From Chloroflexota bacterium (lineage in GTDB: Bacteria > Chloroflexota > Dehalococcoidia > Lucifugimonadales > Australimonadaceae), in contig VXQP01000081.1 in NCBI GenBank assembly GCA_009838965.1, positions 72,014-136,013 on the forward strand: a stretch of DNA of 64,000 nucleotides. Reading direction: 5' to 3'. The notes below the pieces were generated by a model, which saw nothing but the letters and a program-made list of their open reading frames with translations, was not told the DNA's origin and did no database searches. Every line of letters starts with the position of its first letter. The first letter of the stretch is position 1. Below, piece by piece: positions 45,256-55,568 of this stretch. A program made the translations under genes and the position numbers.

Positions 45256-46434
45256 ATGCCGAGACTCGAAGACCTGCCCGATCTCACACGGCAGGGGATG
45301 CTCAACTTCCCCGCCTTCGACCACGACGACGCGCCATGCGCGGTGATGTCGAAGCCGCTGACCGAGGCGAAGATCGCGCTCGTCACGACGGCGGGCCTGC
45401 ACCTGCGCGACGACACGCCGTTCTCCGGCGGCGACCAGACGTACCGTGTCATCCCGTCGTCCACGCCTGCATCGGGGATCATCCAGAGCCACATGAGCAT
45501 CGGGTTCGACCGGACCGGCATCATGCGGGACGTGAACGTCACGTTCCCCATCGACCGGCTGCGGGAGATGGCGGAGCGCGGCGAGATAGGTTCGGTCACG
45601 GAGAACTACTACTCGTTCATGGGAGCGCAGCGCAGCCCGCGCCGCATCGAGGAGGAGACGGGCCCGGAGGTCGGGCGCCTGCTGCTGGAAGAAGGCGCGG
45701 ACGCTGCCTTCCTGACGCCGACCTGACCGAACTGCACGCACACGGTCAGTGTGCTCGCGCGCGCCATCGAGGAGACCGGCCTGCCGACCGTCACCGTCGC
45801 GCTCATCAGGGAGCACGCCCAGCGGGTGAAGCCGCCCCGGACGCTCTGGGTGCCGTTCCCCTTCGGGTTCGCGCTCGGCAACCCGGATGATCCGCCCTTC
45901 CAGCAGAAGGTGCTCTCCGCCGCGCTGGGCCTGCTGTCGGAGAACGACACGCCCGTGCTCGCCGAGTTCACGGAGGACGCCGACGCTCCGCCCGTGCTGC
46001 TGCAGGCGAGCGCCGCGCAGGCGGACGCGGCGAACCGCGACGGCGACCCCGCCGACGAGGTGACGGCGCTCCGTGGCTACTACGAGCGGTGGGTGGACGA
46101 GCACGAGGGCCGGACGATGGTGGGGCTGAGCGGAGTGCCGCAGCGGCAGTTCCGCGGCCTCGTTCGCCATCTGCAGGCGTTCGCCGCCGGAGAGGACGCC
46201 ACATACGACCGGGCGCCGGAGGGGGTGGAGCCCGTGCGGTTCCTGCGCCTCGCCTCGGACGACCTCAAGGCGTTCTTCATGGAGGCGCGCTTCTCCCAGC
46301 GTCCGGACGACCACGACGATGAACTGCAGCGGTGGTTCTGGTCGGAGACGGCGATGGGGAGCCTCATCGCGTCTGTGGCGTCGCGTCTCGCGGAGCAGGG
46401 CAACGAACAGGCCGCGTGGGGCCTCGCCCGGTAG
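45256..46434 (+). CDS. GrdB/PrdB-like selenoprotein (in-frame UGA read as Sec157)
   Basis: The ORF track splits this gene at a TGA (45724-45726), but the same frame continues to 46434, giving about 392 residues. The TGA falls in FLTPT-U-PNCTHTV, a UxxC motif where glycine/sarcosine/betaine reductase B and D-proline reductase PrdB have selenocysteine. The N-terminal half matches that family (FSGGDQTYRVIP, INxTFP-like NVTFPIDRLREMA, ENYYSFMGAQ). A hairpin with a GGUC loop follows the UGA at the bacterial SECIS distance. The part after Sec reads normally (TLWVPFPFGFALGNP). The start has GGAGGAG six bases upstream. It is probably a redox enzyme acting through a selenenyl or thioether intermediate; the substrate is unknown. 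Confidence 0.88.
45724..45754 (+). promoter_or_regulatory. UGA selenocysteine codon and candidate bacterial SECIS hairpin
   Basis: TGA at 45724-45726 is followed by GCACAC (45738-45743), loop GGTCA (45744-45748) and GTGTGC (45749-45754), a perfect 6-bp stem. The loop starts with GGUC, the same bases as in the E. coli fdhF SECIS loop, and its first G is the 18th base after the UGA, as expected for SelB recognition. Confidence 0.8.
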
Positions 46435-46447
46435 GGGGACGCTTGGA

Positions 46448-47293
46448 TTACGTGTTATACCTCTTCAAGAGGAGAACCTCGTCGATCCCGTTGAGGAGTT
46501 CTCGTCGTGCTTCATTCGATAAGTTCGACAAATGCAGTTCTGCAATCTGATCGGGTCCTATCTTCTTCATTAGCTGTACAACTCCGTTCGGACTCAACCG
46601 GAATATGTCGCTGTCGAATGCTCGGTGGCAATACGCACAAAGGCCTATACCGTTGGCCGGGTTTGCGCGATTCTCGACATCATTAGCATAACCACTTAGG
46701 TGCGCTACATCTAACACTTCCCTCATGCGTGTTCCGCAGATTGCGCATTGATATCCTTGACGGCTAAGTACCGTCTCCTTGAATCGCTCAAGACCATGCC
46801 TCCTCTTGACAAATGACCATGCATCGAGAATTTCATATTCTGCTGGCTGAGGAGGGGTAATTGGAATACTATTCTGCCGATAGGCGAGTGTGAGGATTCG
46901 TTCATATAGTTCTTCATTCAAGGATGCTACTGAGCGGGACCAACCAAGCTGGTTGACATCAACTATTCCTAGTGCCAGCCTGTTCCGCTTTCCTTGCTTG
47001 CTAGTAGTGCGTATGTCGAACGGAGATGAATATTCTATGTAATCCCCGATTATTGCGGTGTATATTCTGCTAATCGCCCTGACCTCGGACTCCTGTTCGG
47101 TAGGTTGTCTCCACTGAAGATCTTCAACTATACCGTGTCCGGTGAACGCATAACCGCCGGATTTCTTGCTGAGATAGATGAATAAATCCCCCTGCTCAAC
47201 CCGAACTGAGTGCATGTTGTCATAGACATACGTGTGCCCTGGTCCTTCAGGATAGATAGGCGTGTCCGATTGTTTGAACATCCAATATGCCAT
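46448..47293 (-). CDS. HNH endonuclease with N-terminal EVE/PUA-like domain
   Basis: A 281-residue protein. The C-terminal HNH nuclease has a CxxC (183-186), the core REVLDVAHLSGY with His198, and CAYCHRAFD (Cys219, Cys222, His223), the zinc-supported HNH arrangement. The N-terminal 110 residues (MAYWMFKQ, GDLFIYLSKKSGGYAFTGHG) resemble EVE/PUA-like readers of modified bases, so a modification-dependent (type IV-like) restriction role is plausible. The resemblance is by eye. The gene is clearly AT-richer than its neighbours and stands alone between convergent and co-oriented genes, a sign of recent acquisition. Confidence 0.85.
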   Translation of the reverse strand: MAYWMFKQSDTPIYPEGPGHTYVYDNMHSVRVEQGDLFIYLSKKSGGYAFTGHGIVEDLQWRQPTEQESEVRAISRIYTAIIGDYIEYSSPFDIRTTSKQGKRNRLALGIVDVNQLGWSRSVASLNEELYERILTLAYRQNSIPITPPQPAEYEILDAWSFVKRRHGLERFKETVLSRQGYQCAICGTRMREVLDVAHLSGYANDVENRANPANGIGLCAYCHRAFDSDIFRLSPNGVVQLMKKIGPDQIAELHLSNLSNEARRELLNGIDEVLLLKRYNT

Positions 47294-47378
47294 GGTACTT
47301 GATGCCTCATGTGGTTCGTGAATTCAAGTGGACCTGATGATGGCTAAGCCTAAGGAATAGTGCAAGCCTGCATCCAAT

Positions 47379-48662
47379 CTAAGCAGCACGCGCTCGCGCG
47401 GGGAGCGGAGGGCGACGGGCGAGGAAGAACGTGAGCGAGCCGACTATCGTGACCATCCCGAGCGAGATGAACGCGAAGACGTAGTCGCCCTGCGCGTCGT
47501 ACATGATGCCCGCGTAGACCGGCCCGATGATGCTGCCCCCCGCCGTGATGGTGTTCGACCATCCGGCGATCTTGCCTAACTGCCGCAGTCCGAAGTAGTC
47601 CGCGCGCAGCGCCATCATCAGGGGCCCGCGCATCCCCCACGACACCCCATGCAGCAGTATCGCCACTACCACTACTGATGGACTCGTGGAGAGCGCCAGC
47701 AGGCAGATGCCCGTGCCGTGCCCGAGCATCGCCAGGCCCGCGAGCAGGCGTTTCGGATAGCGGTCGCCCATGATGCCGCCGCTCACCTGGCCGATGACCT
47801 GCGCGACCATGAGACCGGGGAAGAGGAGCGCGGCGCGGGCGAGGTTCCACTCGTCGCTCTCCACGAGGTGGGGGACGAGGTGCACGGGGATGGTGCCGAC
47901 GACCAGCAGTGCGAGGCCGTGCCCGCTGGAGACGAGCCAGAAGGAGCGGTCGCGGATCGCCTCGCGCAGCGTGAAGTCGTAGTCGGTGCCTGCGGCGCGG
48001 CGTGCTGCCGCGTGACGTGCGGCGACCTCGTCGCTGTCGCCGTCCGGGTTCAGCCCGAGCTCCTGCGGGCTGCGCCGGAAGAGCTGGGCGAGCGGTAGGC
48101 CGATGCAGAACGAGAGGATGCCGGAGAAGACGGCGGTCTCCCGCCACCCGAACGTCGTGATAGCCCACGCGATCAGGGGCGCCACGACCGCGCCGCCCGC
48201 GAAGCCGATGGAGGTGACGGACATGGCGCGGGCGCGCTTGCGGATGAACCAGTGGGCGAGCGCAGTGTTGATAGTGAGGAAGCTGGCGAGGCTCGTGCCT
48301 ACGGCGATGACCGTGAGGGCGGCGAAGAGGTGCCACAGCTCCTGTATCTGTCCGAGCAGGATGAGTCCGATGCCGAACAGGAGCGTGCCGGCGCGCATGA
48401 GCGGGCGCGGGCCGAAGCGGTCGATCAGCCAGCCCTGGATGGGGCCGAGCAGGCCGGTCTCGATGCGGAGCAGGCCGAACGCCCATGAGACCGCGCCTCG
48501 GCTCCACCCGAACGTCGACTCGAACTGCACGACGTAGAAGCCCTGTGAGAGGAAGAGCAGGGACGAGTGCATGATCTGGTTGAAGAACGCGGCGACGACC
48601 ATGCGCCAGCCGTAGAAGACACGATGGCGCAGGGCGAGGACGCTTCGGGCGGATGCGGCCAT
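47379..48662 (-). CDS. MFS transporter
   Basis: A 427-residue major facilitator with about 12 helices. It resembles monocarboxylate/oxalate-formate-type members: GFYVVQFESTFGWSRGAVSWAFG at helix 1, GPIQGWLIDRFGPRPLMRAG as motif A, and a central cytoplasmic loop of about 45 residues (RSPQELGLNPDGDSDEV). ATG 48662 begins MAASARSVLALRHRVFYGW. It lies downstream of a cupin-like gene. The transported solute is unknown, perhaps a small organic acid. Confidence 0.9.
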   Translation of the reverse strand: MAASARSVLALRHRVFYGWRMVVAAFFNQIMHSSLLFLSQGFYVVQFESTFGWSRGAVSWAFGLLRIETGLLGPIQGWLIDRFGPRPLMRAGTLLFGIGLILLGQIQELWHLFAALTVIAVGTSLASFLTINTALAHWFIRKRARAMSVTSIGFAGGAVVAPLIAWAITTFGWRETAVFSGILSFCIGLPLAQLFRRSPQELGLNPDGDSDEVAARHAAARRAAGTDYDFTLREAIRDRSFWLVSSGHGLALLVVGTIPVHLVPHLVESDEWNLARAALLFPGLMVAQVIGQVSGGIMGDRYPKRLLAGLAMLGHGTGICLLALSTSPSVVVVAILLHGVSWGMRGPLMMALRADYFGLRQLGKIAGWSNTITAGGSIIGPVYAGIMYDAQGDYVFAFISLGMVTIVGSLTFFLARRPPLPARARAA

Positions 48663-53423: not shown

Positions 53424-54347
53424 GTGAGAATTGATGACACGAGCAGGTTGTCTAGTTGGCGACACGCTCTGCATACTCGTGTAGTTCGGATACCCAGTGA
53501 GGTTGAGCGCATGCGGAAGACACTGAAATCTACCCCCAAGGGGCTGGCCCTCCAAGATGAATATGGACGTCCGATGGGATTTCCCACTCGCTTGGACTAC
53601 ATTGACCACTTGAAGACGCACGACTTGATTTCAAGCGAATCTGACTTTGTCGCCGATGACAGGCTGACCGAGGCCGTCTACTTGGACTGGCTTCTGCGTC
53701 CCCAGGTTGGATGCGTCTTTGCTCAGGTATTGGCTCGCCCTGTCAATCGCTCTAGAGTAAGGACTGTGGTCGCCCGTGGTGCTTCTGGTGCGGGAGCGCC
53801 CAATGAACTAGCGTTTCAGATCGCTAGCTTGGTGGAGGAATGCGTCCAAGATGCATCTACTGAGGCCCTAAGCGTGTTGATGCCGCAGGTGCTTGATCCG
53901 GAGAACCTTACCGACCTCGTTTGGGCACTAGGTCATCAACCGCGCTGGACTATTGAGCAAGAGCGGCTCTGGCGCAGGAGGCTGATGCTCATTGGCCTTC
54001 GAGCTGAGATTGCGGACAACGTGGTGGCAGAGACGCTTGGCATGGGGCCCTTCAACTTCTTTCCAACTACGCGTCAGTGCCCAGTAACGAGCTTGGAGAT
54101 TCGAACCAAGACTAGGCGAGCAAAGCGAAGCCATCTATCGAAAACGCATCTAGCCGCCCACCTTGCTGACTTACCTATCGACGAGGATGTGCTAAGGCCA
54201 GCAGAATTTGGTGTTCGCTTCAAGAGATTCACTCCGTGGTTGAAAAGGCGAATACTTGGACAGCAAGGAGATTCCCGTGCAAAGGCTGGTGTAACCTACT
54301 CTGTCCCGGTGGCCATCTGGTCTTCCCTTAAGATGAGTGACCCATAG
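53424..54347 (+). CDS. Hypothetical protein of AT-richer cassette
   Basis: A 307-residue basic, soluble protein of no family I recognise. It has KSTPKGLALQDEYGRPMGFP near the N-terminus, a helical middle (ELAFQIASLVEECVQ) and a basic C-terminal third (RTKTRRAKRSHLSKTHLA), suggesting nucleic-acid contact. The start is GTG 53424, seven bases after GAGGAG. Base composition is clearly lower in GC than the core genes. The last 20 bases overlap the convergent DHH gene. With DUF488 and DHH it forms a compact accessory unit. Confidence 0.65.
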   Translation: MRIDDTSRLSSWRHALHTRVVRIPSEVERMRKTLKSTPKGLALQDEYGRPMGFPTRLDYIDHLKTHDLISSESDFVADDRLTEAVYLDWLLRPQVGCVFAQVLARPVNRSRVRTVVARGASGAGAPNELAFQIASLVEECVQDASTEALSVLMPQVLDPENLTDLVWALGHQPRWTIEQERLWRRRLMLIGLRAEIADNVVAETLGMGPFNFFPTTRQCPVTSLEIRTKTRRAKRSHLSKTHLAAHLADLPIDEDVLRPAEFGVRFKRFTPWLKRRILGQQGDSRAKAGVTYSVPVAIWSSLKMSDP

Positions 54348-55017
54348 CATGTTCGAGTAGCGGACTAGCCTCACTGGAAAGACAGCGAAAACCACGGACA
54401 GAGCGGTGCATCGCGCAGTCCTCGTCGCCGAGTGCCTCAAAGAAATCCCACTGCCGTTCTTCAATTAGCTTAAGCAGTATTTCGCCAGCAGTTCCTCTAA
54501 CGTGTGCGGCTGCGCGTTTGACACCGAGTGCTCGCTTCCTCAATGTTGGCGTCGAAACGATCCTTGTCGGCGAACCGTCGCACAGGGCTGCCACTTCCAT
54601 AAGGTCCGGGTTCGGGATGCCCAAGCAACAATCATAGGGGTCGTCTACTTCAAACAACAAGACATTGTCCCGTGGACATTCAGGCTGGGTAAAGGGATGG
54701 TGGTCTATTGCGATGAATTGTTTCTTGTCTTCTCGATCAGACACTTGCAGGAGCCGAGACAGAGATTCTGAGGGATTTCTAAATCTAAAGGCAATGTCTA
54801 CGAAGACTATCAAGTCATACTCATGCAGGTCAAACTCATGTAGATGCTCCCAGAATCTATAGTTACGCGTTTTGGGAGATACCAAAGTCGTAACAGCCAA
54901 TCCTCTCTCTACCAAGTAGTGGCGAGTCTGCTCAGCAGCCAAGTGGCCATCCGCATCTGCGTGGCCAAACACTATTGCTGAACTGCAAGACGTTGGAATG
55001 CTGATGTTGTTTGTCAA
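54328..55017 (-). CDS. DHH-superfamily phosphoesterase-like protein
   Basis: A 229-residue protein with DHH-family metal motifs: FGHADADGH (His19, Asp21, Asp23), LIVFVDIAF (Asp74) and IAIDHHPF (Asp105-His106-His107). These bind Mn2+ in RecJ, NrnA and cyclic-di-AMP phosphodiesterases. It is shorter than those enzymes and has no clear DHHA1 domain. ATG 55017 overlaps the DUF488 stop by four bases (ATGA). Possible substrates are short oligonucleotides or cyclic dinucleotides; the small size makes a dedicated accessory nuclease likely. GC is low, as in its neighbours. Confidence 0.82.
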   Translation of the reverse strand: MTNNISIPTSCSSAIVFGHADADGHLAAEQTRHYLVERGLAVTTLVSPKTRNYRFWEHLHEFDLHEYDLIVFVDIAFRFRNPSESLSRLLQVSDREDKKQFIAIDHHPFTQPECPRDNVLLFEVDDPYDCCLGIPNPDLMEVAALCDGSPTRIVSTPTLRKRALGVKRAAAHVRGTAGEILLKLIEERQWDFFEALGDEDCAMHRSVRGFRCLSSEASPLLEHAMGHSS

Positions 55018-55568
55018 CTACGTCTTCCGCGTCGAATTCGTTTGGGCGATACCCATGTGAGGTCTTCCCCGTCTGATTCAAAGAGCGGCATACGTAGGTC
55101 CACTCGTTCAACCATTTGGGTAGCGTCTTGGACTGTGCCATCACGCCGAATGTGCAAGACCTCCAAATCCCGTTCTACTAGCATCCGCGCCAAGAGAGGA
55201 TGACGATGGCATAGTGCGGGGTCTTCCTCGGTACACATCAATGCGAGCCGTTGCTGCTCGCTTGCATCAACAACCTGGCCAATGCCACGACGAAATTCTG
55301 GGAGCGCAGCCACTCGCTCGTATGCCACTCGGCCACCCACATAGAACTCGTCAGGATTCGGATGGCCTCCAAGGCTGTCTCCCAGATAGAGATACCTGAT
55401 GCCAAGACGTGCAAGTCGATCGTCGAGCGGCTCACGATTGAAGTGACGAAAGCGTGAATACGGGTTCGACCTGACATCTACAAGGCACTCGATATTGTGC
55501 TTTGTCAGTAGCGCAAAAAACTCAGCCGCCGGCTGATTCGAATGCCCAATGGTGAATACCGTTGGCAT
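55014..55568 (-). CDS. DUF488 family protein
   Basis: A 184-residue DUF488 protein. Motifs are VFTIGHSNQPAAEFFALL, ECLVDVRSNPYSRF and MCTEEDPALCHRH (the C...CHR signature). DUF488 has no firmly established biochemical role; it appears in accessory and defence-type loci. It is translationally coupled to the DHH gene. It lies in the AT-richer cassette. The first codon is ATG 55568. Confidence 0.9.
   Translation of the reverse strand: MPTVFTIGHSNQPAAEFFALLTKHNIECLVDVRSNPYSRFRHFNREPLDDRLARLGIRYLYLGDSLGGHPNPDEFYVGGRVAYERVAALPEFRRGIGQVVDASEQQRLALMCTEEDPALCHRHPLLARMLVERDLEVLHIRRDGTVQDATQMVERVDLRMPLFESDGEDLTWVSPKRIRRGRRS

Follow-up and report, generated by a model that had tools for sequence, protein, structure and literature searches.

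Gene organization and base composition

The window, the whole stretch of 64,000 nucleotides that was analysed, is located in G000:C4. On its reverse strand, an ORF with an ATG start was identified at 46448-47293 (stop codon included), encoding a protein of 281 aa. It is the sole gene of an interval of 948 bp (46435-47382, GC 0.48) between two convergent genes, and no methyltransferase gene or integrase was found in this interval. The left flanking gene (45751-46434, forward strand) encodes a 227-aa protein without Pfam family and is conserved beside the site in the genus, and the right flanking gene (47379-48662, reverse strand) encodes an MFS transporter (PF07690, E 1.9e-41). Two domains were delimited in the 281-aa protein, both read from the reverse strand; an N-terminal EVE/PUA-like domain (residues 1-140, 46874-47293) as a candidate modified-base reader and an HNH (beta-beta-alpha-Me) nuclease core (about residues 166-241, 46571-46798). 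The gene is referred to below as the EVE-HNH gene.

The GC content of the EVE-HNH gene was 0.479 and its GC3 0.496, against a GC of 0.67-0.72 and a GC3 of 0.86-0.93 in its neighbours, and the lowest-GC stretch of 846 bp in the window started at approximately 46500, inside the gene. The preliminary description had stated that the gene differs in composition from everything around it. This was correct locally, with a GC3 of 0.93 and 0.90 in the two flanking genes, but not across the window, where a second AT-rich island with a GC3 of 0.51-0.57 was located at 53424-55568 (approximately 53.4-55.6 kb). This second island encodes a 307-aa ORF without Pfam family, a protein with a weak DHH-like match that fell short of the cut-off, and a DUF488 protein (E 1.2e-20).

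Relatives of the protein

A profile search of the genomes of the class produced one full-length relative, found in genome G719 of the same order and another family. The two proteins were 45% identical by BLASTP (128/282, E 5e-91) and 47% identical in a MAFFT pair, and the HNH domain was better conserved (65% identity) than residues 1-140 (43%). Identity between the two genes by codon position was 0.58/0.68/0.31 which, together with the 45% identity from end to end, shows that the EVE-HNH gene is a real coding gene under purifying selection. Full-length copies were present in 2 of 250 genomes of the order, namely the window genome and G719. No DNA-level relatives were found in plasmids, and scans of viral contigs with the 281-aa protein, its pairs and L005 produced no relatives.

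More distant relatives were rhizobial-type EVE-HNH proteins (L064, L120, L121 and L118, and L127-L129 and L136 on viral contigs), which are colinear with the 281-aa protein over residues 1-250 at about 20-25% identity. Alignment of the pair (the 281-aa protein and the G719 relative) with the viral-contig members by hhalign gave a probability of 96 and an E-value of 4e-9 over these residues. The rhizobial-type HNH lacks the second Cys pair, whereas the 281-aa protein has both. The rhizobial-type genes sit in plasmid and phage-like contigs and several of them adjoin toxin-antitoxin-type genes; by eye, the neighbours of L127-L129 and L136 were HipA-, Fic- or RES-like proteins or an integrase. Another HNH family, marked by a conserved 'WTR..LLVAF.LY' domain at the N-terminus, was also seen (G000:C94:36681-37022, L003, L010, L012 and L013). 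This family occurs in several congeners and may resemble the methylation-dependent PcaRCII (PMC8989522).

HNH nuclease domain

The 281-aa protein matched Pfam HNH_2 with an E-value of 1.1e-6, above the curated cut-off. The zinc ligands C183, C186, C219 and C222 (CxxC...CxxC) and the residues H198, N214 and H223 (H/N/H) were all intact, and D227 was also present, so that the zinc-type HNH of the preliminary description was found complete. Matches to solved HNH structures were weak with the 281-aa protein as sole query, and the profile of the pair had its best solved match with 6yex (E 9.7e-4). A five-sequence family profile matched 6yex at E 5.6e-12, TagI (6ghs) at 1.2e-7 and EcoKMcrA (6ghc) at 0.0049. 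VcaM4I, TagI and EcoKMcrA are all modification-dependent restriction enzymes. The record of 6yex says 'HNH endonuclease'; we read it as VcaM4I from its length of 309 aa and the domain limits in PMC7897488.

The active residues of VcaM4I are H224, N241, D250 and D254 (PMC7897488). The spacing of N214, H223 and D227 (9 and 4 residues) equals that of N241, D250 and D254 in VcaM4I (PMC7897488), and H198 lies 16 residues before N214, compared to 17 in VcaM4I. An Ala directly precedes H198, which points to D227 as the counterpart of D254; by this analogy D227 would take its role. Judged by profile and motif, the HNH domain belongs to the VcaM4I/TagI/EcoKMcrA nuclease family and has a complete active site.

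N-terminal domain

No Pfam, NCBIfam or PADLOC model named the N-terminal domain, and the region searched alone had no Pfam match. By eye, the domain follows an EVE plan, with YWMFKxSD first, then GDLFIY and F-G-G, and SR-S--SL--E--ERIL-LA last. Residues W4, Y14, Y22, Y40, Y48 and W118 were invariant in the two full-length sequences. For profile comparison, an EVE profile was built from 11 EVE proteins out of PF01878 loci. The pair alone matched it weakly (score 21.8, probability 5%) and so did the rhizobial family alone (score 27.2), both scores exceeding those of shuffles. The pair combined with the rhizobial family scored 46.9 (E 2.9e-7, hhalign), and the further inclusion of L005 gave a probability of 92, an E-value of 5.6e-7 and a score of 45.3, with columns 2-136 of the combined profile aligned from end to end with EVE columns 1-154. 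A total of 100 column shuffles of the combined profile had a mean score of 12.3 and a maximum of 20.1, and 80 single decoy proteins scored at most 16.5, except for two family members among the decoys. The significance of the EVE match comes from the combined family profile only.

Other searches with this region were negative. When the N-terminal alignment was searched as a profile against the PDB, no EVE structure was retrieved and all matches were at chance level, and a search of 400 genomes of the phylum gave weak matches only. The one match inspected from the latter search, in G106, was an unrelated ORF of 705 aa and looked spurious. The Pfam scan of the 281-aa protein had no match with SAD_SRA, no SRA proteins were found among the relatives or controls for a comparison profile, and ASCH produced two weak matches, too few for a profile.

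Structure prediction, which had been proposed beforehand as a check, was informative for a relative but not for the protein itself. The AlphaFold model of the 281-aa protein alone had a pLDDT of 33.6. The model of a colinear viral-contig relative (four sequences) had a pLDDT of 42.1 overall, with N-terminal parts at about 50-76. A Foldseek search of the PDB with the relative's model returned 2p5d, 1wmm, 2hd9, DrmAB and human YTH domains among the top eight hits with a probability of 0.90-1.00 and a best E-value of 1.2e-3; the hit directly after these had a probability of 0.06, and none of the remaining ones exceeded 0.14. The entries 2p5d, 1wmm and 2hd9 are those which we take to be EVE proteins. 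The relative's model and its hits lend independent but indirect support to an EVE-like N-terminal domain. The PUA/EVE-like assignment made in the preliminary description was thus upheld by the family profile over the full length of the domain, in place of an unrelated fold, and the N-terminal domain of the 281-aa protein is predicted to be EVE-like.

The best NCBIfam match of the protein was the phosphorothioated-DNA restriction family NF045808 (E 1.3e-8), as expected if the enzyme were an ordinary restriction nuclease that depends on phosphorothioate or is specific for unmodified DNA, its N-terminal domain reading phosphorothioate or sequence. However, this match spans the HNH only (residues 163-257) and reached 34.3 bits against a cut-off of 180, and the N-terminal profile matches EVE. 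There is also no adjoining methyltransferase, and without one the host's own DNA would be open to attack by a nuclease that cuts unmodified DNA. Such a nuclease is considered unlikely.

Insertion site

The interval of 948 bp in the window corresponds to 97 bp between the same two convergent genes in the congener G003. Intergenic gap lengths vary in any case. G004 has 762 bp here (GC 0.46), with a PLD-like nuclease gene plus a zinc-ribbon gene (L092:3429-4118), and G001 has 2.3 kb, with a PLD-like nuclease gene of host-like GC plus a zinc-ribbon gene (L094:3539-4303) and a repeat array. The two PLD genes were 31% identical to each other and had DrmC/MkoB-like matches in PADLOC. The array in G001 (L094:4741-5310) consists of tandem repeats with ORFs reading 'VGGNPVGAQAP...'. 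An XRE-type HTH gene occupies the 410-bp interval of G005. The EVE-HNH gene was therefore missing at the same site in four congeners (G001, G003, G004 and G005) which, with its two full-length copies in the order, shows that it is not universal in the clade. The MFS gene of the window lacks three C-terminal codons that are present in G004 and has its stop at the insert boundary. Synteny with several relatives on both sides of the site speaks against misassembly of the contig.

With its atypical GC3 and a near-empty site in a congener, the EVE-HNH gene is a recent arrival at this site. The earlier view of a single transferred gene fits, as one gene fills a gap between conserved convergent genes that is 97 bp in G003. 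The gap itself is a putative exchange site, as an observation on five genomes.

A single HNH gene set cleanly between conserved neighbours, where a congener has an empty site, is also what a selfish, homing-type HNH endonuclease would leave after spreading itself into an intergenic site, the EVE-like domain merely aiding DNA binding. This explanation is very unlikely, since the sister species hold unrelated PLD-like and HTH genes there, so that it is the site that recurs and not the EVE-HNH gene. In addition, the only full-length relative sits elsewhere, in a defence island, the nuclease falls in a restriction-enzyme HNH family, and a search for terminal repeats of an inserting element gave only short, chance-like matches, none convincing.

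Genomic neighbourhood of the full-length relative

In G719, a type IV CBASS cluster precedes the relative on the same strand, with 360 bp in between. This cluster (L066:4849-8162) was identified with PADLOC and comprises QueC (E 6e-64), TGT (3e-87), an oligonucleotide cyclase (1e-103) and an effector (4e-47). A HigBA-like pair, recognised by eye and without PADLOC hit, follows the EVE-HNH gene on the other strand. The CBASS cluster and the EVE-HNH gene had a low GC3 of 0.50-0.58, compared to about 0.7. QueC, TGT and cyclase genes beside EVE-HNH were seen only at the G719 relative, and no TGT (Cap10-like) match was found in the window genome, which indicates that CBASS need not accompany the EVE-HNH gene.

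The position 360 bp behind the cluster, the shared strand and the low GC of all these genes could mean that the EVE-HNH protein is the nuclease arm of a larger system, such as a type IV CBASS accessory, stranded as an orphan in the window. This is very unlikely given the lack of a TGT match in the window genome, the long gap in G719 with toxin-antitoxin-like genes after it and the single instance; the adjacency may be a mere defence island, and it is treated as such here.

Predicted function and comparison with known systems

The product of 46448-47293 is probably a divergent, recently acquired EVE-HNH type IV restriction endonuclease. The reader-plus-nuclease fusion of type IV-like kind that had been suggested is supported by an EVE-like N-terminus joined to an HNH nearest to those of VcaM4I, TagI and EcoKMcrA, and on its sequence the gene most likely encodes a one-gene anti-phage enzyme of known type. 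We infer base flipping, modification dependence, dimerisation and an anti-phage role for this protein. When phage or plasmid DNA enters the cell, the N-terminal EVE domain would flip a modified base out of it and into an aromatic pocket, with 5mC or 5hmC as the candidate base by analogy to VcaM4I, and the HNH domain linked to it, probably dimeric, would then cut nearby. No methyltransferase would be needed because the host's own DNA would lack the mark. A wider proposal, that the gap between the convergent genes serves for the exchange of single nuclease or defence genes and that the EVE-HNH subfamily reads a modification which VcaM4I does not, is speculative and seems improbable. Under this proposal, the type IV CBASS cluster next to the G719 relative would make bases of the 7-deazaguanine type one candidate.

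The EVE-HNH gene is of an ordinary kind; less ordinary are its putative exchange site and the CBASS cluster next to its relative. Among modification-dependent restriction enzymes encoded by one gene, the protein would form a further, divergent branch that standard domain libraries miss. Such enzymes are tools for modified-base mapping and reveal the base modifications that phages use. At this site, where the flanks are constant on both sides, the gain and loss of small defence-type genes can be followed across sister species.

Among known systems, VcaM4I (PDB 6yex; PMC7897488) has the same domain order, EVE-like first and HNH last, a similar size (309 aa compared to 281 aa), the same HNH family and a common catalytic spacing N/(H or D)/D. 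It flips 5mC or 5hmC into a pocket, in which the modified-base residues are P24, W82 and Y130, and its linker is auto-inhibitory (PMC7897488). In contrast to VcaM4I, the N-terminal sequence of the 281-aa protein has diverged so far that it gives no EVE hit in Pfam, and the protein keeps four Cys zinc ligands and has H223 where VcaM4I has D250. TagI (SRA-HNH, PDB 6ghs) shares the HNH family and likewise has a PUA-superfamily reader at the N-terminus, predicted as such in the 281-aa protein; however, the reader of TagI is an SRA domain, for which the 281-aa protein had no match. In defence contexts EVE domains evolve rapidly, and many of them can be detected only with methods like HHpred (Bell, Wolf and Koonin 2020, PMC7641849). 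The EVE-HNH type IV restriction systems described there resemble the present protein in that a fast-evolving EVE domain is fused to an HNH and was found by sensitive profile methods.
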